A DNA stretch of 64,000 nucleotides from Spartobacteria bacterium (GTDB lineage Bacteria; Verrucomicrobiota; Verrucomicrobiia; Chthoniobacterales; UBA10450): contig PNAA01000031.1 in NCBI GenBank assembly GCA_003169975.1, positions 42,242 through 106,241 of the forward strand. The letters run 5' to 3'. The notes under the pieces were generated by a model, which did no database searches, was not told the DNA's origin, and saw only the letters and a program-made list of their open reading frames with translations. Shown here one piece after another: positions 44,723 to 61,753 of this stretch (position 1 is its first letter; each line of letters opens with the position of its first letter). The translations under genes were made by a program, and so were the position numbers.

Positions 44723-44817
44723 ACTCCTGTCTACGCATGGCTGCGCCAACAGGAGTCATTAGCGCCGAATCGGTCGGGCGGTTTTCCCTTTTCGCGGGAG
44801 GGCAAACTCCATTGCCC
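44723..44817 (-). promoter_or_regulatory. Fluoride (crcB motif) riboswitch with Shine-Dalgarno-sequestering platform
   Basis: On the minus strand, GGGCAATGGAGTTTGCCC (44817-44800) is the aptamer P1/P2 start, AACCGCC lies in the middle, and GCTAATGACTCCTGTTGG (to 44746) is the conserved 3' part (ATGACTCCT). The consensus is well known for the crcB motif. Downstream, ACTCCTGT (44756-44749) is fully complementary to ACAGGAGT (44730-44723), which contains the crcB Shine-Dalgarno. Fluoride binding would hold the first strand in the aptamer and free the ribosome site, an ON switch at translation; the switching is inferred from pairing. Confidence 0.92.
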
Positions 44818-44857
44818 AGTAATTAGCTACTTCAAAATTGTGGCGAAACAAGCGGCA

Positions 44858-49130: not shown

Positions 49131-49170
49131 GTCGTGTTGCGTCCGCGCTCACCTCGGACGCGGCGCGAAA

Positions 49171-49262
49171 GGACAAAGGACATCCAGCGTTTTCGCTCGA
49201 GGCCCTTATTGTCCGCGAGTCTCCTCACGAGCCTTCCGGGAGTCGGTTAGGACGACTCCCGG
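49171..49262 (-). ncRNA. Three-hairpin 3' element, copy A
   Basis: Begins 23 nt after the stop of the 49286-53002 gene. Read on the minus strand: stem CCGGGAGTCG/CGACTCCCGG (49262-49236), then CGTGAG-GAGA-CTCGCG (49229-49214, GNRA loop), then a degenerate third hairpin. Here the third hairpin has lost the GGGCATCCAGCG symmetry of the other copies, though GGACAA/TTGTCC can pair around it. Confidence 0.7.
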
Positions 49263-49285
49263 AGACGATAGTTAGGCGGACCTGG

Positions 49286-52200
49286 TTACGGGATACTGTG
49301 GCCTTTGTTGGTCTTGGCTATATTAACGTCCACAGTCTTGATCCTGCCGTCGGCGTTGAGATCCTCGCGGAAGTTGGCGCTCGTCACGGGCTGGTTCACT
49401 TGACTTTGAACCAGCGTCTGATCGGGCTTGCCAACCAATCGACTGGCGTCTGCGTCACCCACGAGGAAACCAAACGGAACGTCTCCGTGCGGTTGTCCGT
49501 CGCCGTTGATATTCTCCGTATGCAGAGTCACAACCTCCGCCGTGGTAACACCGGTGAGTTGGGCCGTCATGCTGTTGCCACTGAATGTAATGGCTCCTAC
49601 CGTGGCCGTCCCGCTTAGGACCGTAACCTCGCCCGATGTGACCGGGGCGTCGAAGGTAAAGACTGCGTTGTAAGTCGTGGCGCTACGATCTTCCACCCCG
49701 GATACACCAGTCAGGGGCATGTCGATGTCGAAGGTACCGGCCGCACCGTGGGCCAGGCGCGAGGCCGCGCTCACGAGATTTACTGTCGGGTTGGTGCATG
49801 CGAAGATTTCCATCGAGCTCACCGGGGTGCTGGGCGCGTAGCCGCCGGCGAGCCAAATCTTGGTCGTGCCGTCGGTATCGGTCGGGAAGTTGCGCCGCGC
49901 GGTCGCGAACGGCGGAATCGTAGTGGCTGACCAACTGTTAGCAACTGGATCATAGACGTCCACCTCATTGGAGGGGTTGGGAGCAACTCTCCCGCCGCCC
50001 ATCACCAACATCTTGCCGTTGAAGTTAAGCGCCCGCGTCTCGCCTGTGGCCCGCGGGATGGCTGCGATCGTGCCGATGGTGTTCGTGCCAGGGTTGAAGC
50101 TGAACGAGTTGGTGGTGTCGATCACCACGCCCCCGGAGTAATCTGATGCCCCCGCCAGGTAGATGACGCCACCGATGGTGCACGTGGGTGCGTACATGAC
50201 CCCTTCCGGCGTGTTTACTTTCTGTGTCCACTTCGCGCCTGCCCCAGCCCTAGGATCAAACTGCCATATCTGGTTGGTGGAAGCGACGTTGATGCTGAAC
50301 CCGCCCAGGATATAGAGCTTGTTGCCAGTTACGGCGAAGCCACCAGGCAGGATTGTGCCTACCAAATCGCCAGGCCAGTTGTCTGAAGAGGTGAGACTGC
50401 CTATCGTGTCGGCGACCGGGTTATAGAAGAACACGCGCGCGGTGGCTGTCGTCCCTCCGGCCGCGGAGCCGCCTACGCAGTAGATGTATGGCGTTCCACC
50501 GACCGTGAGCACACCACAAGCCATGTTGTTCACCTCGTTATCGGGATAAGTGGCCGACTTGGTGGTCCAGGTGTTCGTGCCTGGATTATATTCGAACGGG
50601 TGCACGAAATCGTCGCCCGCCGTATCGGAACTGCGTCCACCCATTGCATAAAACCTGCCATTGGCCGGGAAATAGACGCCAACCGAGCGGACCGCGACAC
50701 TCGGCATGTCCGGACCCGCTGACCACGTGCAAGAATTCCCCTCGACGGTGTAATCCCCGGAGAAGGCCGCGTTAGGATTGCAACCCCCAGCGGTGATCGC
50801 CCCGGCGGCAATGCTCGCTGTCATGCTTCCCCCGAAATTGATATTCAGCGTGAAATGGGCAGTCGTATTCCCGTTGATAAGGGTAACATTTGTCACGGTG
50901 GCGCCCACACTGCCGGTCAGCGTCAGATCGCTTGTTTGGACTGAAGTTGGATCGACGGCTTGGTTAAAGTTCACGTCATACGTATATGTGCCTGGCGCCG
51001 GCGGAGAGAAGGTGCCGCCGACGGGTGGGTTGGTCGTAGTCACCTGTAGCGGCGCGGTGGCGTAACAGAACGTGCAGGTGAAATCCAAATTCGGCATATT
51101 GTCCGAAGCGCGGTTGAACGCGCCAGCGGGTATATGCATCGTCTGGGTGCCCGGCGCTGTCACCGGAGTACTCGTATAGTGGAATGTTATTGTGGTCGTG
51201 CCCGTCGTGTAACTGACGGTGTTCGCCGCGATCCCATTGACCGTGAAATCGCTCGGTTGGAGAGTCGCCCGCTTCACTGAGTCGGTCACGTTGACCACGA
51301 AATCAGTTGGCTGGGTGAAGATCACGCTGGCGCAGGCGGGGGTCGTGCTGGTAACGGAAAAGCCCACCAGTTCCCTGTCGGTGAAGGTATTCTGCTGGGA
51401 TTGGCCGCTGATGGTCACGCGCCCGTCCACCCATGAAGTGAGGTGCTTGGTGGCCAACGCGGTGCCGTAGTCGTAGTCGCCTGCATACGTCGCTTGGACG
51501 TTACCGTCGGGTTGGCCGGGGAGCGGGGTGACAACGTCCGAGAGCATATCGTCAGGCAACCAGGTTACGCCGTTATCGTTGGACTTGCGCGACCACATCC
51601 GGTAGCACGGAACGGCTGGATTACCATAGGTGCAGCTGGCACTCTCGCGCCCGTCATACCATGTCGCCAGGAGGGTGCCGGTCGGGCTCACCGAGATGTT
51701 GGGCTGCCACTGCGGACGTGTCGTGGTATCGCTGTTCAACTTGAACGGCGCGCTAAAGGTCACACCGCCGTCCGTCGAGCGGATATAGTAGACGTCGCCC
51801 GCATCGCTGCCGGAGCCTTGCTGGGCATAGACCAGGTGAACCACGCCGTTGTAGGCGGCAGGCTCACCCCAGCCCTCGTGCCGCCAATAGCCGCCGTTAT
51901 CCAGAAACATGCAGGCGAAGTAACCGACTGCGGTGACGCCCGGTCCGGGAAAACCAGGGCCGGTATAGGTGTTGGTCCAGGTCACGCCGCCGTCGGTGGA
52001 CTTGAAGATGAGGTTGTTGTTGGTGTGGGGGAAGCCACCGCCGCCTTCGTTCATGCCCGCGACGTAGACGACCCCGTTGCCCGAAAGATCACCGGTGATC
52101 TGGACGTCGCGGATGAACGGGGTGCCGCTGGTGAGCTGTGTGGAGGTCCAAGTGACACCGTCGTCGGAGTGGGTGACGAAGAGGGCGCCGGCCCCGACAT

Positions 52201-53002
52201 TGAAGTCGTTCCAGGAAACATACATCCGCCCATAGTGTGGGCTGGCCGGGTTATTGTCGGCCCAGCCAGACTCGCGATCGTCGCTGATGCCGTTGTGAAC
52301 GCAAGCACCAACCGACCAGGTGTTGCCGCCGTCAATGGATTTCCAGGAGCCGATGCCCTGTCCGCCGCAGCCCGTAGCGAGAAAAATTCCAAAGAAGGCG
52401 CTGGTAGGTTTGTTGTAGAGAACAACCGGGTCGCCAAAGTTCGTCCCGTGGCCACTGGCGAAGGGGCTGGGCGTGAGGCGCGTGAAGGTCAGGCCGCCGT
52501 CCGAGGAGACTGATCCGCCGGCGTAATTGCTCGGGGCGGTTCGGGAATCGTTGTAGGCGACGAAGATCTGGTTGGGGTTATCCGGGTTGGCCGTAGTGTA
52601 GGTCTCCGACTGGGTAACGGCGGGAAAAGTCTCGGGGCCTGTGACCAGGTCGACGTCGGCGCCGCCATACGCCAGGGGCGCCAACAGTTCTTGGGTAATC
52701 GGGTAAGATTCGCCGAAAGGCGAAGGTGAGCCGCCCTCTGCCTGGCCGCAGTAAATCATGATCGCTCCGGCCCGCAGGTTTTCCTGCAGGTCGATGCCTA
52801 GCGCCTGAATCTGAGAACAGTCAAACCCGGCAGGGACGAGCGGGTCGACGGAGGTGGTGGTGGCGCCGTATTGCTGCTGCGCTTGCGCAGAGGACTGGCC
52901 AAAGCTCAGCAAGCCCAGAAAGACGCCGGTCAAAACTAAGAACAGGCCGATTAGGACGCGCAGATTAAAGAAGGCAGATTGTGAAACGGATGGCTTTTTC
53001 AT
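49286..53002 (-). CDS. Large secreted protein: sialidase-like propeller, kelch repeats, dockerin-like end
   Basis: 1,238 residues. N-terminal export segment: SQSAFFNLRVLIGLFLVLTG. Residues ~95-560 hold BNR/Asp-box repeats (SSDGGLTFTRL, STDGGVTWTNTY, SRKSNDNGVTW) as in sialidases; ~565-800 beta-sandwich repeats; ~815-1080 kelch repeats (GGRSSDTAGD, FEYNPGTNTWTTK). The end has SRLAHGAAGTFDIDMPLTG, then dockerin-like EF-hand loops DADASRLVGKPD and DLNADGRIKTVD, closing KGHSIP. Likely surface or extracellular glycan-related; enzymatic activity is unproven. A long plus-strand ORF opposite is a shadow. Confidence 0.88.
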   Translation of the reverse strand: MKKPSVSQSAFFNLRVLIGLFLVLTGVFLGLLSFGQSSAQAQQQYGATTTSVDPLVPAGFDCSQIQALGIDLQENLRAGAIMIYCGQAEGGSPSPFGESYPITQELLAPLAYGGADVDLVTGPETFPAVTQSETYTTANPDNPNQIFVAYNDSRTAPSNYAGGSVSSDGGLTFTRLTPSPFASGHGTNFGDPVVLYNKPTSAFFGIFLATGCGGQGIGSWKSIDGGNTWSVGACVHNGISDDRESGWADNNPASPHYGRMYVSWNDFNVGAGALFVTHSDDGVTWTSTQLTSGTPFIRDVQITGDLSGNGVVYVAGMNEGGGGFPHTNNNLIFKSTDGGVTWTNTYTGPGFPGPGVTAVGYFACMFLDNGGYWRHEGWGEPAAYNGVVHLVYAQQGSGSDAGDVYYIRSTDGGVTFSAPFKLNSDTTTRPQWQPNISVSPTGTLLATWYDGRESASCTYGNPAVPCYRMWSRKSNDNGVTWLPDDMLSDVVTPLPGQPDGNVQATYAGDYDYGTALATKHLTSWVDGRVTISGQSQQNTFTDRELVGFSVTSTTPACASVIFTQPTDFVVNVTDSVKRATLQPSDFTVNGIAANTVSYTTGTTTITFHYTSTPVTAPGTQTMHIPAGAFNRASDNMPNLDFTCTFCYATAPLQVTTTNPPVGGTFSPPAPGTYTYDVNFNQAVDPTSVQTSDLTLTGSVGATVTNVTLINGNTTAHFTLNINFGGSMTASIAAGAITAGGCNPNAAFSGDYTVEGNSCTWSAGPDMPSVAVRSVGVYFPANGRFYAMGGRSSDTAGDDFVHPFEYNPGTNTWTTKSATYPDNEVNNMACGVLTVGGTPYIYCVGGSAAGGTTATARVFFYNPVADTIGSLTSSDNWPGDLVGTILPGGFAVTGNKLYILGGFSINVASTNQIWQFDPRAGAGAKWTQKVNTPEGVMYAPTCTIGGVIYLAGASDYSGGVVIDTTNSFSFNPGTNTIGTIAAIPRATGETRALNFNGKMLVMGGGRVAPNPSNEVDVYDPVANSWSATTIPPFATARRNFPTDTDGTTKIWLAGGYAPSTPVSSMEIFACTNPTVNLVSAASRLAHGAAGTFDIDMPLTGVSGVEDRSATTYNAVFTFDAPVTSGEVTVLSGTATVGAITFSGNSMTAQLTGVTTAEVVTLHTENINGDGQPHGDVPFGFLVGDADASRLVGKPDQTLVQSQVNQPVTSANFREDLNADGRIKTVDVNIAKTNKGHSIP

Positions 53003-53232
53003 AAGTTTTGAACGGCTTCATTAGGATTGTTGAGGTTCTAATTATTTTGTTGGTTTTGCTCCCCCAATTTCGATGCTTGCGAATACAAGGAAGATTTGTC
53101 AATGAGTTTAACCTTATAATTCTGAAAGGCAGCTGTTGGGCGGTTCACTCCAGTCATCTGGAAACGACATGAAGAATGGCGAATTTCGCCCGTTTATCGA
53201 AGCGTCGAACAAGTGGGGGATTGGAACGACTA

Positions 53233-53691
53233 TCAACCCGTGAGGCGAATCGCCTTGAATGTGCCGTTCTTGGATGGTCTGGCTTTGGGGTCTTTGGGGT
53301 CCTGATCGAGGGGAAAGAAGATGGATTCTCCCGCAATCGAGCCCCCCGTTCCGAATTTCCCTTTCAATACCAATGTTCCGGCGTCGCGCCCGACGTTGCC
53401 GAGCGGAAATTCCACCGAACCTGAGAAGATCACGGAGCCTGCATCGCCCTGGGTCCACCTTGCCTCCGAGGGCCCGGCGCCCCCCCAGAATTTCGATTGT
53501 GGATCAAGGAGCAGGAAGGAGCCTTTCCCAGACTCTCGCGCCTCAAAGCGCAATGAACGGCTCTCGCCATTGCTGAACGTGACGTCCACTTTCCAATTGC
53601 CGATGACGTTCGAAGACTGCACCTTGGACAAGCCAACGCCGAATATTTGGGCGCATACGATCAAAATCAATGCCGGTTTTGGTGTCACCAT
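53233..53691 (-). CDS. Small secreted beta-rich protein, copy 1
   Basis: 152 residues from ATG 53691 with signal peptide (PALILIVCAQIFGVGLS). NVIGNWKVDVTFSNGESRSL, GKGSFLLLDPQSKFWGGAGP, VEFPLGNVGRDAGTLVLKGK and PKARPSKNGTFKAIRLTG. About 85% identical to 56113-56568, so the two come from a local duplication. Beta-sandwich or lipocalin-like shape is a guess. It lies between the two sialidase-type genes, just downstream of hairpin element B. Confidence 0.8.
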   Translation of the reverse strand: MVTPKPALILIVCAQIFGVGLSKVQSSNVIGNWKVDVTFSNGESRSLRFEARESGKGSFLLLDPQSKFWGGAGPSEARWTQGDAGSVIFSGSVEFPLGNVGRDAGTLVLKGKFGTGGSIAGESIFFPLDQDPKDPKARPSKNGTFKAIRLTG

Positions 53692-53788
53692 TGCCGCCTG
53701 CTTCCTCGCGTTTAGGATTGGTTCAATGTGTTCCGCTTGGCGACTGAGATCAAGACAGGGACCGCAGTCGCTCGCGCCGCCAGAAAGC

Positions 53789-53874
53789 ACAAAGGGCATC
53801 CAGCGTTTCGCTGAATGCCCTTCGTTCGCGAGTTGCCTCACGAGCCACCAGGAGTCGGATTGAACGACTCCCGG
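53789..53874 (-). ncRNA. Three-hairpin 3' element, copy B
   Basis: Begins 58 nt after the stop of the 53933-55837 gene. Minus strand: CCGGGAGTCG/CGACTCCTGG (one G-U), CGTGAG-GCAA-CTCGCG (53842-53827, GNRA loop, one G-U), and AAGGGCATTCAGCG/CGCTGGATGCCCTT (one U-G) followed by TTGTGCTTTC. Three pairs that are A-C mismatches on the plus strand become G-U on the minus strand. Confidence 0.78.
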
Positions 53875-53932
53875 AAGCAAACTGGCTAGCTCTCTTACGG
53901 GATAGATTAACCCTTGTGGCGCAAGTCAGCTA

Positions 53933-55837
53933 TTAAGGAATGACAACGTTGACTGTGTTCGAGCAACCGCCGCCGTCCGTTTCACACACCTGGTAGGCGT
54001 GTGTCGTCCCACTCGCGTTGCTAAGTTTGTCTCTGGTGGTTCCATCGTCTGCTGTCGTCTGAATGACGGTGCCGTCCCGCATGACGTTGATGTTGCCGTC
54101 GTTCTCGGCCGGACTCCATTTTAGCGTGACTCTTGATTTAGTTCCCCGAGTTTGCGCGCTTCCCGTAAGCACAATGTTCTCACCACCACCGCCCGAGGTT
54201 GCCTCGCTGTCGGTGAAGGTATCCTGCTGGGATTGGCCGCTGATGGTCACGCGCCCGTCATCCCATGAAGTGAGGTGCTTGGTGGCTATCGCGGTGCCGT
54301 AGTCGTAGTCACCCGCGTAGGTCGATTGGACGGTCCCGTCAGGTTGGCCGGGGAGCGGGCTGACAACGTCCGAGAGCATTGCATCAGACGACCAAGTTGC
54401 GCCGTTATCGGTGGACTTGCGCGACCACATTGCGTAGCACGGAACGGCCGGGTTACCCTTGCTGCAGGCCGCGCTGTCGCGTCCGTCATACCACGTCGCC
54501 AAGAGCGTGCCGGCCGGGCTCACCGAAATGTTGGGCTGCCACTGAGGACGGGTCGTGGAATCGGAGTTCAACTTGAACGGCGCGCCAAAGGTCACGCCGC
54601 CATCGGTCGAGCGGATGTAATAGACGTCGCCAGCATCACTGCCGGCGCCGTGCTGGGCATAGACCAAGTGAACCACGTTGTTGAAGGTAGCAGGCTCACC
54701 CCAGCCCTCGTGCCGCCAGTAGCCGCCGGCGTCGGAAAACATGCAGGCGAAGTAACCGACAGCGATGACGCCCGGTCCGGGAAAGGCGGGGCCGGTATAG
54801 GTGTTGGTCCAAGTGTTGCCGCCGTCGGTGGACTTGTAGATGTGGTTGATGTTGTTGTGCGGGAAGCCACCGCCGCCTTCGTCCATGCCGGCGATGTACA
54901 CGTCGCCTGTGACCGGGTCACCGGTGATCTGGACGTCGCGGATGAATGGGCTGCCGCTGGTGATCTGTCGCGCGTTGGTCCAAGTCAATCCGTTGTCGGT
55001 GGAGTAGCGGAGGAAGAGGGCGCCGCCCCCGACATTGAAGTCGTTCCAGGAAACGTACATCCGCCCGTAGAATGGGCTGCTCGGGTTGTTGTCGGACCAG
55101 CCAGACTCGCGATCGTCACTCGAGCCGGTGTGAACGCAAGCACCAACCGCCCAGGTGGCGCCGCCGTCAGTGGACTTCCAAGCTCCGATGCCCTGTCCAC
55201 CGCAGCCCGTAGCGAGAAAAATTCCAAAGAAAGTGCTGGTAGGTTTGTTGTAGAGAGTAACCGGGTCGCCAAAGTTCGTCCCGTGTCCACTTGCGAAGGG
55301 GCTTGGGTTGAGGCGCGTGAAGGTCATGCCGCCGTCCGTGGAGAATGATGCACCGGAGTAGTTGGCGCTGGCGGTTCGGGAATCGTTGTAGGTGACGACG
55401 ATCTGGTTGGGGTTATCCGGGTTGGCCAGGGTGTACGTCTCCGACTGAGTAGGATGGGTTATGCTGTCGGTGCCGGTGATCAGGTCAACGTCCGCGCCGC
55501 CAAAGAGGGGCGCCAGCAGTTCCTGGACAAACGAGGAAGAATCGCCGGAATCCGTAGGAGAGCCTCCCTGCGCTTCGCCGCAGTAAATCGCAATGGCTCC
55601 TGCACGGAAGTTTTCTTGCTTGTCGATGCCAAGATTGTGAATGCTGGAACAGTCAAACAGGGCAGGGACGAGAGGGTCGATGGGCTTCGTGGCAGCGTAA
55701 GTCCTCGACTGCGCTTGCGCGGAGAACTGGCCAAAGCCCAGCACCCCCAGAAACACGCCGGCCAGGGCTAAAAACAGCCCGGTTAAGACGCGCAGATTAA
55801 AGAAGGCGGATTGTGAAGTGGTTTTCTTTTTTTTCAT
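53933..55837 (-). CDS. Large secreted sialidase-like protein with Fn3-like tail
   Basis: About 634 residues from ATG 55837 (MKKKKTTSQSAFFNLRVLTG). The first ~555 residues are strongly similar to residues 1-565 of the 49286-53002 product, with the same Asp-box repeats (STDGGMTFTRL, STDGGNTWTNTY, STDNGATWSSD). It then diverges: instead of kelch and dockerin-like parts it ends with a short Fn3-like domain (SRVTLKWSPAENDGNINVMR, YQVCETDGGGCSNTVNVVIP). Secreted; probably glycan-directed by fold, untested. Confidence 0.87.
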   Translation of the reverse strand: MKKKKTTSQSAFFNLRVLTGLFLALAGVFLGVLGFGQFSAQAQSRTYAATKPIDPLVPALFDCSSIHNLGIDKQENFRAGAIAIYCGEAQGGSPTDSGDSSSFVQELLAPLFGGADVDLITGTDSITHPTQSETYTLANPDNPNQIVVTYNDSRTASANYSGASFSTDGGMTFTRLNPSPFASGHGTNFGDPVTLYNKPTSTFFGIFLATGCGGQGIGAWKSTDGGATWAVGACVHTGSSDDRESGWSDNNPSSPFYGRMYVSWNDFNVGGGALFLRYSTDNGLTWTNARQITSGSPFIRDVQITGDPVTGDVYIAGMDEGGGGFPHNNINHIYKSTDGGNTWTNTYTGPAFPGPGVIAVGYFACMFSDAGGYWRHEGWGEPATFNNVVHLVYAQHGAGSDAGDVYYIRSTDGGVTFGAPFKLNSDSTTRPQWQPNISVSPAGTLLATWYDGRDSAACSKGNPAVPCYAMWSRKSTDNGATWSSDAMLSDVVSPLPGQPDGTVQSTYAGDYDYGTAIATKHLTSWDDGRVTISGQSQQDTFTDSEATSGGGGENIVLTGSAQTRGTKSRVTLKWSPAENDGNINVMRDGTVIQTTADDGTTRDKLSNASGTTHAYQVCETDGGGCSNTVNVVIP

Positions 55838-55892
55838 AACGTGTGAATGACGGAGTTGGATTTTGGATGTTTGTAATCTGAGCATTGGTTTT

Positions 55893-55912
55893 GGGTAAAT
55901 TTATTTTCACCC
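55893..55912. promoter_or_regulatory. Inverted repeat GGGTAAA...TTTTCACCC upstream of the 53933-55837 gene
   Basis: GGGTAAATTTATTTTCACCC lies about 55 nt upstream of the start codon. It matches the type found at 59047-59065 and 61799-61814 before two other genes of the array. A shared operator or a leader hairpin is possible. Confidence 0.45.
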
Positions 55913-56112
55913 TATTTCAATGGTAGCGAAATTAAGGAAGATCTGTCACGGGGTTTAACCTTACAATTTCGAAAGGTGCTTCTTCCGGTACTCCCTTTGG
56001 TTTGTGGACAGCTTCAGTCGCTTCTCGAGAACGGCCGATACTAAAGGCGTAGGCCAACCATTGCGATGGCCGCTGTTGGCTCGCTGCGGCGGAGGGGGGA
56101 TTTGAACGATGA

Positions 56113-56568
56113 TCAACCCGTGAGACGAATCGCTTTGAACGTGCCGCTCTTTGACGGCCTGGCTTTGGGGTCTTTTGGGTCTTGATCGGGGGGAAAGAAT
56201 TTAGCCTCTCCGGTTATCGAGCCGTCTGTTCCAAATTTCCCGTTCAACACCAATGTTCCCGCGTCGCGTCCGACGTTGCCGAGAGGAAATTCCACCGCGC
56301 CCGAGAACATCACGGAGCCGTCATCGCCCTGGGTCCACTTGGCCTCCGAGGGTCCGGCGGCCCCCCAGAACCTCGATCCTGGATCAAGCAGCAGGAAAGA
56401 GCCCTTCCCGGAACCTCGGGCCTCAAAGCGCAATGAACGGCTCTCGCCATTCCTGAAGGTGATTTCCACTTTCCAACTGCCGATGAAGTTCGAAGACTGC
56501 ACTTGGGACAAGCCAACGCCGAACATTTGGGCCAATACGATTAAAATCAATGCTGGTTTTGGTGCCAC
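56113..56568 (-). CDS. Small secreted beta-rich protein, copy 2
   Basis: 151 residues, apparently from GTG 56568 (its paralogue uses ATG one codon earlier). Signal peptide PALILIVLAQMFGVGLS, then NFIGSWKVEITFRNGESRSL, LLLDPGSRFWGAAGP and KARPSKSGTFKAIRLTG. Close copy of 53233-53691. It follows hairpin element C and precedes the 53933-55837 gene, mirroring the layout around copy 1. Confidence 0.8.
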   Translation of the reverse strand: MAPKPALILIVLAQMFGVGLSQVQSSNFIGSWKVEITFRNGESRSLRFEARGSGKGSFLLLDPGSRFWGAAGPSEAKWTQGDDGSVMFSGAVEFPLGNVGRDAGTLVLNGKFGTDGSITGEAKFFPPDQDPKDPKARPSKSGTFKAIRLTG

Positions 56569-56737
56569 AATCTGCCGCCTCCCGTCACTTTACCTTATCC
56601 CCAATGTGTTCCGCTCGGCGGCTGAGATCAATACGCGACCTTAGAGAGCAGCAAAGTTGTAAATTCCGGCCAGGGCGCTTCGGGCTAACGAACAAGTCGC
56701 GTCGAGCAAACGCCTGTCGTTTGGGCCGCCAGAAAGC

Positions 56738-56827
56738 ACAAAGGGCATCCAGCGCTTTCGCTGGATGCCTTTGCCGCCCGCGAGTTTCCTCGCGAGCCAT
56801 CCGGGAATCGGTTAGGACGACTCCCGG
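56738..56827 (-). ncRNA. Three-hairpin 3' element, copy C
   Basis: Begins 28 nt after the stop of the 56856-59015 gene. Minus strand: CCGGGAGTCG/CGATTCCCGG (one G-U), CGCGAG-GAAA-CTCGCG (56794-56779, GNRA loop) and a 14-bp hairpin on CATCCAGCG/CGCTGGATG. Best-preserved middle stem of the four copies. Confidence 0.78.
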
Positions 56828-56855
56828 AGGCAATATTACATGGTTAATTCCGCCC

Positions 56856-59015
56856 TTACGGCAGGATCTTGCCCTTGTTGGGCTTCACCAGCTTCCCATC
56901 CCTGGCATTGATTACGCCGTCAAGGTTAAGGTCGCTGCGGAAGTTCGAGCTGGTTACGGCCTGGCCATTCTGGCTCTTGATCGTGCTTGAATCGGGCTGA
57001 TCAACAATACGATTGGCGTTCACATCGGCGTTGAGGAAGCCGAACGGAACCGATCCATCATTTGGATTGCCGTCTCCGTTGATGTTGCTCAACTGAATGG
57101 TCACGTTCTGCGCCGTCGCTACTCCCGTCAGAGCCACACTCATGGTGTTGCCGCTGAAGGTGATCGCTCCCACCGTGGCGGTGCCAGAAACAACCGCCGC
57201 CGAACCAGAGGTCACCGGACCGCTGAAGGTAAAGACGGCGTTGTAGGTGCTTGCGACCCGGTCTTCATCTCCCGACTGACCGGTCAACGGCATATTGATG
57301 TCGAAGGTACCGGCAGGTCCGTGGGTCAGGCGCGAGAGCGCGCTGGTCAGAGTCACACCCGTAGTGCCGCCGCAGTTGGGAAACTTGAAGTTGGCGATTT
57401 GCGTGCGCCAGTTAAACGAGCTGGTCGACGCATAGTATTCCTGGGTATACCAGAAAGTGCAGTCGTCCACCGGATCGATCGTCATGTCGCTGTAGTCACC
57501 CCAGCGATTGGAGGTGTCGGTCTGCGCGCCCGTGCCATCAATGATGTGCGCTTCACCCTGAGGCAGGGTGTTGATCGGATCGGTCGAGAGCCGGCCGGTG
57601 TAGCGGATCTGCGGGAAGATCGTCGCGTCGGAAGCACTGAAGCCGAGAGCCATATCGCCTTTCTTATCCATCGCGATACTGCCCATCCAGCGCCAGGTCG
57701 TGTCCGGCTGGTAGGTGCTGTCCTGGAAGGTCGTCACCGGGCCCGCCGTGACCCCGCGCAGTTCGAACCAGCGAATGCCGCCGACGTTGTTGGACCTGAC
57801 TGTCCAATTGCCGACCAAAGATTCGTGGTCGCCCATATTGCGGTAAGCCAGACGGAACATCAGGCGGTCGGCGAGGTTGTCCAGGTAGTTAGAGGAACTC
57901 ACCCCAAGCTCCGGAACGAGGGCAGTGAGTACACTCCAGCCCGCCGCGGGCGACGAACCGAACAGCGTCAGGGTGGAGTTGGTCGGGACAGTGAAATCCA
58001 CATGGAAGTGATAGACGCGATACGTAGCGGGGCTGTTGTCCGGCAAGAAGACCAGTGAGTCTGGTGCGCCGGCTGGCGGCAGCGTCGAACCATCGAGGTC
58101 GGCTGGCAACCAGGGCGGAAACGAGGGCCCCAAGGTCGGGAAGGTGATCAAGGTGGCTGGCATACCTGCGAGCATTTTCGTGCGATCAAACGCCCAGGCC
58201 TGCGGCCCGAGATAGGCGGTGCCGGACGAATTGAACACGTTCATCGTCATGTAGTAGGCATCCGGCCAAACCGCGATCTTCGGGTAATCGAAGAGCGCAT
58301 TGGTTCCCAAGGGGAAGTCGTAGCGGTTCCAGGTACCAGTGGCGTCGCTGCTCGTGGAGACTGCGATACACTCATCATGCAGGCCATTGGCGAACTGGCT
58401 GATCAGCCAGCGATTCGCGATCTGATCATAGAGCATGACCGGGTCACCCTCGCCGGCGGTCTGGCAGACGCCGCCAAAACCTGTCCAAACAGATTCAATG
58501 CTGGCCGGGCCGAGCAAGGAAGCGCCGGTCGTTTTATCAAAGACCTGGTAGCCTTCGTTCACGATCTGCACGTATTGCGTTGCACCCACTTCGCCGTCGG
58601 TATCAGGCGGAGCGCAGTTGCAAATGACACCCGGGAACGGAATGCCGGCAAAATTGAGGATCGGCGACGGAATGCTCGGCGCCAGTTGGCCAAGCAAGGA
58701 TTTCGTTTGCACGACCTGGTCAGGCATGTCCTTGTGCTGACCGGTCCAGACTTTCCAGTTGGCCGCCGCTTCGTGCTCTTGCACTCTCTGGACTGGCCAG
58801 GGTTCGACATCACGCATCGCCGGTGAGACGTCGTTGTGAGCCGAGTACATGACGATTGGTTTAGGACTTTGATTCGCTCCTGCCGCGACGGCAGTTGAGC
58901 TTGAGTAGATACTCAACGCGAGGAGCGCCAGAAAGACGCCGACGGAGCTGAGAACGAATCCGAGTAAGACGCGCAAGTTAAAGAACGCGTCTCTAGAAGC
59001 TGACCTTTTTTGCAT
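56856..59015 (-). CDS. Large secreted protein with dockerin-like end, type C
   Basis: 719 residues. Export segment SRDAFFNLRVLLGFVLSSVG. The core (residues ~115-560) contains FPGVICNCAPPDTDGEVGAT, QYVQIVNEGYQVFDKTTGAS, WTGFGGVCQTAGEGDPVMLY and RWGDYSDMTIDPVDDCTFWY, a repeat-poor propeller-like domain I cannot name. The end has SRLTHGPAGTFDINMPLTG and dockerin-like loops DVNANRIVDQPD and DLNLDGVINARD. Partner of 59537-61753 by tandem duplication, about 60% identical. Confidence 0.85.
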   Translation of the reverse strand: MQKRSASRDAFFNLRVLLGFVLSSVGVFLALLALSIYSSSTAVAAGANQSPKPIVMYSAHNDVSPAMRDVEPWPVQRVQEHEAAANWKVWTGQHKDMPDQVVQTKSLLGQLAPSIPSPILNFAGIPFPGVICNCAPPDTDGEVGATQYVQIVNEGYQVFDKTTGASLLGPASIESVWTGFGGVCQTAGEGDPVMLYDQIANRWLISQFANGLHDECIAVSTSSDATGTWNRYDFPLGTNALFDYPKIAVWPDAYYMTMNVFNSSGTAYLGPQAWAFDRTKMLAGMPATLITFPTLGPSFPPWLPADLDGSTLPPAGAPDSLVFLPDNSPATYRVYHFHVDFTVPTNSTLTLFGSSPAAGWSVLTALVPELGVSSSNYLDNLADRLMFRLAYRNMGDHESLVGNWTVRSNNVGGIRWFELRGVTAGPVTTFQDSTYQPDTTWRWMGSIAMDKKGDMALGFSASDATIFPQIRYTGRLSTDPINTLPQGEAHIIDGTGAQTDTSNRWGDYSDMTIDPVDDCTFWYTQEYYASTSSFNWRTQIANFKFPNCGGTTGVTLTSALSRLTHGPAGTFDINMPLTGQSGDEDRVASTYNAVFTFSGPVTSGSAAVVSGTATVGAITFSGNTMSVALTGVATAQNVTIQLSNINGDGNPNDGSVPFGFLNADVNANRIVDQPDSSTIKSQNGQAVTSSNFRSDLNLDGVINARDGKLVKPNKGKILP

Positions 59016-59046
59016 ATATATGTTTTGCTTGTGATTTAGACTGACC

Positions 59047-59065
59047 GGGTAAAGTTGTTTTACCC
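59047..59065. promoter_or_regulatory. Inverted repeat GGGTAAAGTTGTTTTACCC before the 56856-59015 gene
   Basis: A 7-bp arm pair (GGGTAAA/TTTACCC) around GTTGT, 32 nt upstream of the start codon. Similar repeats precede two other genes of the array. Confidence 0.5.
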
Positions 59066-59427
59066 GCTGTCGAGCCTATCTAAGTGGTGACCTAATTACC
59101 ACAGTTATATTATATATGGCTGGTTCGTAATCACTCGGTCATGCAATTATCATTTTTAACCTCGAGAGAATAGGATTGGAGTCAGAGGTATCGCATTGCA
59201 CGGCTTGTGGTAGCTGCGGCAGCAGACAGAGCAATACTGCGCGGAAGATGCGTCAGTTAACGATCCCGCTTCACTGACCGCCGGAGGAAACGGCAATGCG
59301 CCGCCTCTCCCAGGACCCAGGTCGCGCGTTGTTCGTTATGGTGGGGTGAAATAGGGAAGCGCTACGGAACCCCAGAGAGCGGAGCGAGTTTGGAAATCAA
59401 AAGGGCGGGTCGTTCCTCCGAAAGCAC

Positions 59428-59513
59428 AAAGGGCATCCAGCTAACTACTGGATGCCCTTGCGCTCGCGAGCTTTCTCACGAGCCTTCCGGAAGTCGGATG
59501 GGACGACTTCCGG
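59428..59513 (-). ncRNA. Three-hairpin 3' element, copy D
   Basis: Begins 23 nt after the stop of the 59537-61753 gene. Minus strand: CCGGAAGTCG/CGACTTCCGG, a compensated change relative to the CCGGGAGTCG/CGACTCCCGG of copy A; CGTGAG-AAAG-CTCGCG; and AAGGGCATCCAG-TAGTTAG-CTGGATGCCCTT. Stems kept while loops differ. Confidence 0.78.
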
Positions 59514-59536
59514 AGGCGATAGTTATTCTAAACCGG

Positions 59537-61753
59537 TTACGGGATAGAGTGGCCTTTGTTAGCTTTGGCTATGCCAACGTCGGCGTTCTTGATCCGGCCA
59601 TCTGCGTTGAGATCTTCGCGGAAGTTGGCGCTCGTCACCGGCTTGTTGATTTGGCCTTGTACGAGCGTCACATCTGGCTTGGCAACCGTTCGGTTGGCAT
59701 CGGCGTCGCCCACCAGGAAGCCAAACGGAACGTCTCCATGGTTCTGGCCGTCGCCATTAATGTTTGACGTCCGCAGGGTGACCACTTCCGCGCTGGTAAC
59801 ACCTGTGAGTTGTGCCGTCATGCTGTTGCCGCTGAATGTGATCGCTCCCACCGTGGCAGTGCCGCTTAGGACAGTGACCTGGCCCGATGTGACAGGAACG
59901 TTGAAGTCGAAGACAGCGTTGTAAGTGGTCGCGCTGCGATCTTCAACTCCAGATGTACCAGTTAGAGGCATATTAACGCTGAAGGTCCCGGCTGGACCAT
60001 GAGTGAGCCGGGATTCTGCGGTCAGCAGGGTAGCACCTCCACCGCCGCCGCAAGTGCTAAACTTGAAGTTGAGGATGCGGGTGCGCCAGTTAAACGAGCT
60101 GTTCGTCGAATAGTATTCCTGGGTATACCAGAAAGTGCAGTCGTCCACCGGATCAACCTGCATGGCGCTGTAATCGCCCCAGCGGTTGCTCGTGTCGGTT
60201 TGGCTGCCCGTGCCATTAAAGGCATCGTTCTCACCAGTCAGGGTGCCCAAAGGATCGGTCGAGGCGCGAAACGCGTAGTGGATCTGAGGATTGATGGTAG
60301 CGCTGGAGGCGCTAAAGCCGATCGCCAAATCTCCCGACTTATCCATCGCGACACTGCTCATCCAACGCCAGGTCGTGTCCGGCTGATAGGTGGCCTCCTG
60401 ATTGGTCGTGCCACTGGCTCCGCCCAGGTTTTTGAGCTCAAACCAGCGCGGGGCTGCTACCCCGCCTGAGAGCACCGTAAAGTTTGACACCCACGATTCG
60501 TTCGGCGAAGTCGGGGTACCAAAATTCCGATAGGCCAGCCGGTACATCAGGCGGTCGCCAATGGCATCCAGCCAGTTACTGGAACTTTGTCCAAGCTCTG
60601 GAACACAGGAGCGCGTGGTCGTGCAGATGAAGGTGAAGGGCGCTGCCGTCGGACCCGTAAACATGGTAAAGGTCGGGCCCGTGCCGAAAGGCACGCCGAC
60701 GCTGTAATGCCAGTACCGGTAGTGGCCGGCATTGTTGCCGGTGGTGTCTGGGAACTCCAGGAAGGTATTCGGAGCGCCGGCCGGCGGCATGTTCATCCCG
60801 TCGAAGTCGGAGGGGATTAGGGGGTCCTCGTTACTTGCTGGCGAACCGACGACGCCCGGACTGATAATGGTCGCTGCCGTGCCGGCCAACATCTTCGTGC
60901 GGTCCATGGCGAGCGGCTGCGTGCCGAGGTAAGCCGTGCCGGTCGAGTTGAATACGTTGAACGTCATATAGTAAGCATCAGGCCAGCTGGATAGCTTGGG
61001 ATAGTCGTAAAAGTTGGCGCCGAATGGGACGAGATTGAACTGATAGCGATTCCATGTGCCGGTGGCAGAGTTCGTGGTGGAAACGGCAACGCACTCGTTG
61101 TTTGGGACGGAACCAACGACCGCGAATTGGCTGATGACCCAGCGGTTGGCCAACTTGTCATAGAGCACGACCGGGTCGCCGGAGCCGCCGGTTTCGCAAA
61201 CACCGCCAAAGCCAGCCCAGACCGACCGGATGCTCGCTGGTCCAAGGACTGAATTACCGGTGGTCTTGTCAAAGACCTGGTAGCCTTCGTTCACGATCTG
61301 CACGTATTGCGTCGCGCCCACCGCGCCATTGGTATCGGGCGGGGCGCAATTACAGACGACGCCCGGGAAAGGGATGCCGTCAAAGTTAAGACCAGGGACT
61401 ACACTGGCCAGCAGATTGGCCATGAAGCTCTTTTGGACGACCGTGTCAGGTCGGCTTCCACTGTCGCGAACAATGCCAACCTTCGGGTTTTCGGGAGCCT
61501 CGTGTTCACGAGCAGGTGGGAGAGCCCAGGTTGCCATTTCGCTCAGGGGCGCTGAAACGTCGTTCTGAGATGAGTGAACGACAACCCAATGGGGTTGCCA
61601 TATTTGTGCCTGTTGCTGAGCTGCGAGGACGGACGCCCCAGGATAAAGGCCAAAACCAACGAGCGCCAGAAAGACGCCGACGGAGCCAAGAACTAGTCCG
61701 AGTAAGACGCGCAAATTAAAGAAGGCGTCTCGAGAAGCTGATCGTTTTTTCAT
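59537..61753 (-). CDS. Large secreted protein with dockerin-like end, type C paralogue
   Basis: 738 residues. Export segment SRDAFFNLRVLLGLVLGSVG. Core segments FPGVVCNCAPPDTNGAVGAT, IVNEGYQVFDKTTGNSVLGP and RWGDYSAMQVDPVDDCTFWY match the neighbouring gene. It ends with SRLTHGPAGTFSVNMPLTGT, dockerin-like DADANRTVAKPD and DLNADGRIKNADVG, and KGHSIP, identical to the end of the 49286-53002 product, so the C-terminal module has been exchanged among array members. Confidence 0.86.
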   Translation of the reverse strand: MKKRSASRDAFFNLRVLLGLVLGSVGVFLALVGFGLYPGASVLAAQQQAQIWQPHWVVVHSSQNDVSAPLSEMATWALPPAREHEAPENPKVGIVRDSGSRPDTVVQKSFMANLLASVVPGLNFDGIPFPGVVCNCAPPDTNGAVGATQYVQIVNEGYQVFDKTTGNSVLGPASIRSVWAGFGGVCETGGSGDPVVLYDKLANRWVISQFAVVGSVPNNECVAVSTTNSATGTWNRYQFNLVPFGANFYDYPKLSSWPDAYYMTFNVFNSTGTAYLGTQPLAMDRTKMLAGTAATIISPGVVGSPASNEDPLIPSDFDGMNMPPAGAPNTFLEFPDTTGNNAGHYRYWHYSVGVPFGTGPTFTMFTGPTAAPFTFICTTTRSCVPELGQSSSNWLDAIGDRLMYRLAYRNFGTPTSPNESWVSNFTVLSGGVAAPRWFELKNLGGASGTTNQEATYQPDTTWRWMSSVAMDKSGDLAIGFSASSATINPQIHYAFRASTDPLGTLTGENDAFNGTGSQTDTSNRWGDYSAMQVDPVDDCTFWYTQEYYSTNSSFNWRTRILNFKFSTCGGGGGATLLTAESRLTHGPAGTFSVNMPLTGTSGVEDRSATTYNAVFDFNVPVTSGQVTVLSGTATVGAITFSGNSMTAQLTGVTSAEVVTLRTSNINGDGQNHGDVPFGFLVGDADANRTVAKPDVTLVQGQINKPVTSANFREDLNADGRIKNADVGIAKANKGHSIP

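Follow-up and report, generated by a model that had tools for sequence, protein, structure and literature searches.

In two sister genera of soil Verrucomicrobia, a small set of genes for secreted proteins is followed by a genuine RNA element that has apparently not been described before, the core of which is a hairpin (H1) of 10-13 bp carrying a 7-nt loop. In the window (the whole 64,000-nucleotide stretch of a Spartobacteria bacterium genome that was analysed), direct reading and alignment identified four copies of ~100 nt, all on the minus (mRNA) strand and each 3′ of a large secreted-protein gene, where a preliminary description had placed them (Table 1). The order on the mRNA is stop codon, a spacer of 22-57 nt, H1, H2 and H3. 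The short spacer was part of that description, which gave 23-58 nt; measured to the H1 stem it is 22, 57, 27 and 22 nt in copies A, B, C and D, respectively.

Table 1. Features of the window (positions in the whole stretch)
Feature	Position	Strand	Remarks
Fluoride riboswitch (crcB RNA motif, RF01734)	44743-44825	-	38.2 bits vs gathering score 34
Element copy A, full-element model match	49167-49266	-	model trained on window copies among others
H3 terminator-like hairpin, copy A	49176-49207	-	stem imperfect
H2 hairpin, copy A	49213-49230	-	loop GAGA
H1 hairpin, copy A	49235-49263	-	11 bp; 7-nt loop TCCTAAC at 49246-49252
Gene upstream of copy A	49286-53002	-	secreted; BNR + Kelch repeats; dockerin-like tail
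Reading frame between genes	53233-53685	-	~150 aa; DNA ~85% alike with 56113-56568
Element copy B, full-element model match	53783-53878	-	model trained on window copies among others
H3 terminator-like hairpin, copy B	53792-53822	-
H2 hairpin, copy B	53826-53843	-	loop GCAA
H1 hairpin, copy B	53847-53875	-	loop TTCAATC, a standard tRNA T-loop sequence
Gene upstream of copy B	53933-55837	-	secreted BNR-repeat protein; Fn3-like tail; start set at signal-peptide Met
Reading frame between genes	56113-56568	-	~150 aa; DNA ~85% alike with 53233-53685
Element copy C, full-element model match	56732-56831	-	model trained on window copies among others
H3 terminator-like hairpin, copy C	56741-56772	-
H2 hairpin, copy C	56778-56795	-	loop GAAA
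H1 hairpin, copy C	56800-56828	-	loop TCCTAAC
Gene upstream of copy C	56856-59015	-	secreted; no Pfam domain; dockerin-like tail
Element copy D, full-element model match	59420-59517	-	model trained on window copies among others
H3 terminator-like hairpin, copy D	59429-59459	-
H2 hairpin, copy D	59464-59481	-	loop AAAG
H1 hairpin, copy D	59486-59514	-	loop TCCCATC; compensated GC->AU pair
Gene upstream of copy D	59537-61753	-	secreted; no Pfam domain; dockerin-like tail

Structure and covariation of the element

Folding of the mRNA strand gave energies of -55.6 to -65.5 kcal/mol and z-scores of -5.9 to -9.9 for the four copies, and none of 200 shuffled sequences folded equally well. The plus-strand fold was weaker in three copies and approximately equal in copy C. 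H1 of copy A reads CCGGGAGTCG-TCCTAAC-CGACTCCCGG, and the arms of H3 are AAGGGCATCCAGC...GCTGGATGCCCTTTGTGCTTTC.

The compensated pair reported for copy D is real and is the sole change affecting both sides of a pair among the four copies, which on their own therefore make a thin case. The relatives make the covariation case strong. By statistics that are not tree-aware and that draw on copies in part related through gene duplication, 96.7% of the cells in 22 H1 sequences are paired, both-sided changes occur in 6 of the 11 pairs and the covariation score is 0.257 (slid controls, 0.03-0.10; score reached by 0/500 shuffles), while the complete element, aligned from 11 copies in five genomes (G000, G001, G002, G003 and G005), shows both-sided changes in 12 of 32 pairs (5, 2 and 5 in the three helices) and a score that again no shuffle reached (0/500). 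Covariation statistics had been proposed as a check in the preliminary description, and all three helices covary once the relatives are added.

The same description had drawn the functional strand from an excess of G-U pairs over A-C mismatches. On the mRNA strand G-U outnumbers A-C by 10 to 1 in the window copies (sign test, p = 0.006 by cells and 0.035 by distinct pair types) and by 26 to 6 across the 11 copies from five genomes (p = 0.0003 and 0.005, respectively). The position in copy C that was said to run the other way was also found, as an A-C pair at the base of H3. For H1 alone the ratio is just 7:3, so the strand evidence for this hairpin comes mostly from its fixed orientation and its asymmetric loop.

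The H2 loop is of the GNRA type in three of the four window copies, as had been described, and AAAG in the fourth. H2 is nevertheless optional: in several relatives (L110, L121, L112) it is absent or differs, which rules out the whole three-hairpin unit as a conserved family. H3 is a G+C-rich hairpin followed in most copies by a T-rich, though degenerate, tail (TTTGTGCTTTC), and it is terminator-like by score in window copies C and D. These features suggest an ordinary intrinsic-terminator hairpin, most simply the terminator itself. The three-hairpin form with which the description began thus gives way to a core consisting of H1.

Distribution and gene context

A BLAST search of the window's own genome identified two further H1 copies (C9 and C12) behind other secreted-type genes, and a third (C59) came from a covariance-model search. 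In a protein scan of genome contigs, the copy-D gene had its closest homologues in soil Chthoniobacterales-type Verrucomicrobia, relatives on which the placement of the organism rests, and H1 was found behind homologous genes at L013, L016 (twice), L021 and L050. The last of these lies on a contig filed under another organism and has the same arrangement of gene and H1, with the stop codon visible in the sequence. Close homologues of the copy-D gene were also seen on contigs filed as Actinobacteria, Chloroflexi and Bradyrhizobium MAGs (L025, L027, L050, L066 and others), reflecting either mis-binning or transfer.

Related genomes were searched with three covariance models, R1 (197 relatives), R2 (213 genomes of the order) and R3 (207 genomes of the order). 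Homologues were found in other genomes, with convincing copies confined to the window's genus (five genomes, G000-G004) and one genome of the sister genus (G005), at 3-7 copies per genome. Because all three models were trained on copies that they later matched, only matches outside the training set count as independent finds; examples are G005:C179, G005:C253 and G000:C59 for R1 and G002:C391:10759 for R3. In a 387-genome sample of the phylum that included G000, R2 found convincing copies in G000 only, together with one weak match past a stop codon whose loop, GCCATTC, lacks the loop signature. The R1 and R2 matches outside the two genera (L116-L118, L137-L140, L143-L145 and L225, as read) were mostly dismissed, since they overlap reading frames, lack the loop signature or lie at chance level. 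Two genomes, G209 (L144) and G140 (L143), have T-loop-like loops with weak scores, and R3 gave weak matches in other families (E 2e-4 to 0.01).

No family in Rfam 15 matches the element at its gathering threshold, and the sub-threshold matches are weak and unrelated. Plasmids and viral contigs yielded no match to the element, and a limited literature search found no paper on structured RNAs of Verrucomicrobia or on Udaeobacter UTRs. The outcomes named in advance as speaking against an RNA element, namely a lack of covarying homologues elsewhere or a match to a known terminator or repeat family, did not occur, because homologues covary in other genomes and Rfam holds no matching family.

In all 22 assessable copies of the clade, H1 lies in the sense orientation 10-57 nt past the stop codon of a secreted-type gene; the copy G005:C295, too near a contig end, was left out of this count. 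The N-termini of most encoded proteins resemble signal peptides and fall into more than one type (those of G003C46 and G005C179 are uncertain, as the true start is ambiguous). At the C-terminus the proteins differ: some carry a dockerin-like tail, the tail may instead be Fn3-like, L110 has yet another and L127 has none, so H1 is not a by-product of one coding tail, and a tie of the element to a single C-terminal domain is ruled out. Nor does the element mark secreted-protein genes in general: the own genome has 28 matches to the dockerin-like tail, and with the 3′ sequences of most of them read, 6 have an intact H1. The sole gene with an Fn3-like tail in this genome, gene B, has H1.

One paralogue (L168, G000:C14 near 11404) carries what looks like a decayed H1, CCCCGGGGGTTCGTGCGATCGTCATTCCCGGA, behind a dockerin-like tail resembling those of copies A and D, indicating that the element can be lost. 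Tails very similar to those of C9 and C12 occur on G000:C13 (L171) and G000:C48 (L173, L174) with no H1 behind them; downstream of the stop codon these loci agree with C9/C12 for ~12 nt (TAATTAGAAAGG) and then diverge, as if duplicated copies had been cut at that point.

The window genes form a tandem array of secreted-protein genes (49286-61753), each with an element. In G002 a tandem array of similar genes and elements (L153, L221) ends beside the reductase-type gene that also adjoins the window's array, so the array is shared within the genus; it is a shared array that expands and contracts. The N-termini of the four window genes are alike and signal-peptide-like (M-K-K-x-S-x-S-x-A-F-F-N-L-R-V-L...), and this start occurs eight times in the genome, with the four strong matches all lying in the array. 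The two reading frames between the genes (Table 1) have no match in Pfam or NCBIfam.

Likeness of the H1 loop to the tRNA T-arm

The H1 loop and its closing pair follow the pattern G-[U1 Y2 C3 N4 A5 W6 C7]-C. U1, A5 and the closing G-C pair are invariant in the 22 H1 sequences and C3 is present in all but one; the loop of a diverged copy, G002:C391:10759, reads CUUCAC and departs from the signature. The invariants of the tRNA T-arm are G53, U54, C56, A58 and C61, and the T-stem plus the acceptor stem measure 12 bp. The element thus shares with the T-arm a G-C-closed heptaloop in which positions 1, 3 and 5 are U, C and A and position 7 is mostly C, as well as a helix near the length of the T-stem and acceptor stem together, and the loop of copy B is the standard G-UUCAAUC-C. 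In contrast to tRNA, position 2 is mostly C rather than U or pseudouridine, position 4 is often a pyrimidine, D-arm, anticodon arm and CCA are lacking, and the hairpin sits in an mRNA 3′ UTR.

The fetched DNA contains 310 distinct hairpins that have a loop of 7 nt and >=9 pairs. The pattern G[UNCNANN]C occurs in 19 of them, of which 18 are H1 copies and the other (L143) was itself fetched by the H1 model; none of the ~290 unrelated 7-nt-loop hairpins in the same DNA carries the signature, a match that constitutes a strong lead rather than proof because the comparison was made after the loop had been seen. Judged from its sequence, the H1 loop may adopt a T-loop fold with a U1-A5 reverse-Hoogsteen pair. 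Eukaryotic tRNA enzymes modify T-loop-like sites in mRNAs (GUUCNANNC, m1A and related), which like H1 are hairpins with G-U-Y-C-N-A-N-N-C; those sites, however, are eukaryotic and mostly in 5′ UTRs, whereas the second U is mostly C in the element (PMC9916637).

Possible functions

The structure is evident from the sequence, and how it acts we infer. We favour, with roughly even confidence, a clade-specific cis-acting structured 3′-UTR RNA in which a T-loop-type hairpin before the terminator sets a shared decay or processing fate for mRNAs. H3 would end transcription, and H1, together with H2 where present, would then constitute a stable fold just inside the 3′ end of the mRNA. This fold would slow 3′-to-5′ exonucleases, and a trans factor, perhaps one normally handling tRNA T-arms, would recognise H1 through its loop. 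Secreted-protein mRNAs with H1 would thereby have a common decay or processing fate. As a cis element at the 3′ end of the mRNA, H1 would act by way of its loop, its stability or the two together. None of the results bears on localisation, a further role raised in the preliminary description. The fixed position and orientation of H1 downstream of stop codons, despite several unrelated C-termini, are consistent with this model.

A less likely alternative is that the element is a composite terminator only, in which H3 terminates, H1 and H2 are inherited stable stems conferring at most exonuclease resistance, and the loop has no partner. Such a reading agrees with the terminator-like scores of H3 in two window copies, the very stable stems and the presence of several copies within tandem-duplicated arrays. 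Stability alone, however, leaves unexplained both the constrained, asymmetric loop and the near-constant, compensated stem sequence. Unlike an intrinsic terminator, H1 and H2 have no T-run, so H1 is not a terminator, and H1 persists where a clear H3 is lacking (G003C46, G005C179 and C59), so it is not just part of one. The view of the preliminary description that this is more than a plain terminator is upheld by a strand-specific, covarying 3′-UTR RNA structure. We find it highly improbable that the conserved object is instead a palindrome at the DNA level, whether a REP-like mobile repeat, a protein-binding dyad or a recombination site. The dyad of 27 bp is near-perfect, DNA dyads too are preserved by compensatory change, and REPs, whose definition includes a high copy number, have been reported from the verrucomicrobium O. 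terrae (PMC3733652). The element resembles REP/REPIN palindromes in being short and extragenic, but it is present in only 3-7 copies per genome, has a single orientation and a single position after stop codons, bears a conserved asymmetric loop and an excess of G-U over A-C, is absent from the plasmids and viral contigs searched, and shows no signs of mobility.

Two further readings were considered. In one, H1 mimics the stack of T-arm and acceptor stem, and RNase P cuts near its base, splitting the coding part from the terminator end. The T-arm invariants in the loop and a helix of 10-13 bp, near the 12 bp of tRNA, would suit such a substrate. According to a review, RNase P gauges the stack of T-stem and acceptor stem and requires a T-loop or a loop resembling it, whereas the D-loop is dispensable (PMC4919913). 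Against this, no copy has CCA behind the 3′ strand of H1 (a 3′ RCCA next to the helix is helpful, though not always required), and the helix length is not fixed at 12; we regard RNase P processing as improbable. The other reading, which appears to us decidedly improbable, is that of a regulatory RNA formed by the 3′ UTR itself or released from it. The C-rich loop (UCCU) of this RNA would pair with sequences of the Shine-Dalgarno type, located either in its own gene, as in icaR, or in other mRNAs. A UCCU core does occur within the UCCUAAC loop of many copies, and 3′-UTR to 5′-UTR pairing and 3′-UTR-derived sRNAs are known in bacteria (PMC3868564, PMC5502269). The complementary core TAGGA, however, does not occur in the upstream stretch (300 nt at most) of any of the 23 genes examined, leaving pairing with the gene's own Shine-Dalgarno sequence or 5′ UTR unsupported; moreover, loop positions 1, 3 and 5 are kept rather than UCCU, which is itself not kept because position 4 varies. 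The element resembles the regulatory 3′ UTRs of icaR and others in that an RNA structure lies between the stop codon and the terminator, but its loop showed no complementarity to its own 5′ region, and it is conserved as a family across several genes and two genera.

Returning to the favoured 3′-UTR element, a factor that handles tRNA T-arms would be the most specific testable idea for its partner. The candidates may include RNase P, an enzyme that modifies T-arms or a protein that binds T-loops. A full tRNA-mimicry code, in which the T-arm-like hairpin puts secreted-protein mRNAs under such a factor and so gives them a shared fate, we regard as rather unlikely. The covariance model offers a direct route to more copies and to the choice of loop mutants. 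To our knowledge, few bacterial 3′-UTR structures are so well conserved that families can be recognised, and little is known about gene regulation in soil Verrucomicrobia. If the T-loop reading is true, the element would represent natural mimicry of the tRNA T-arm at the 3′ ends of bacterial mRNAs, linked here to secreted proteins of these soil bacteria.
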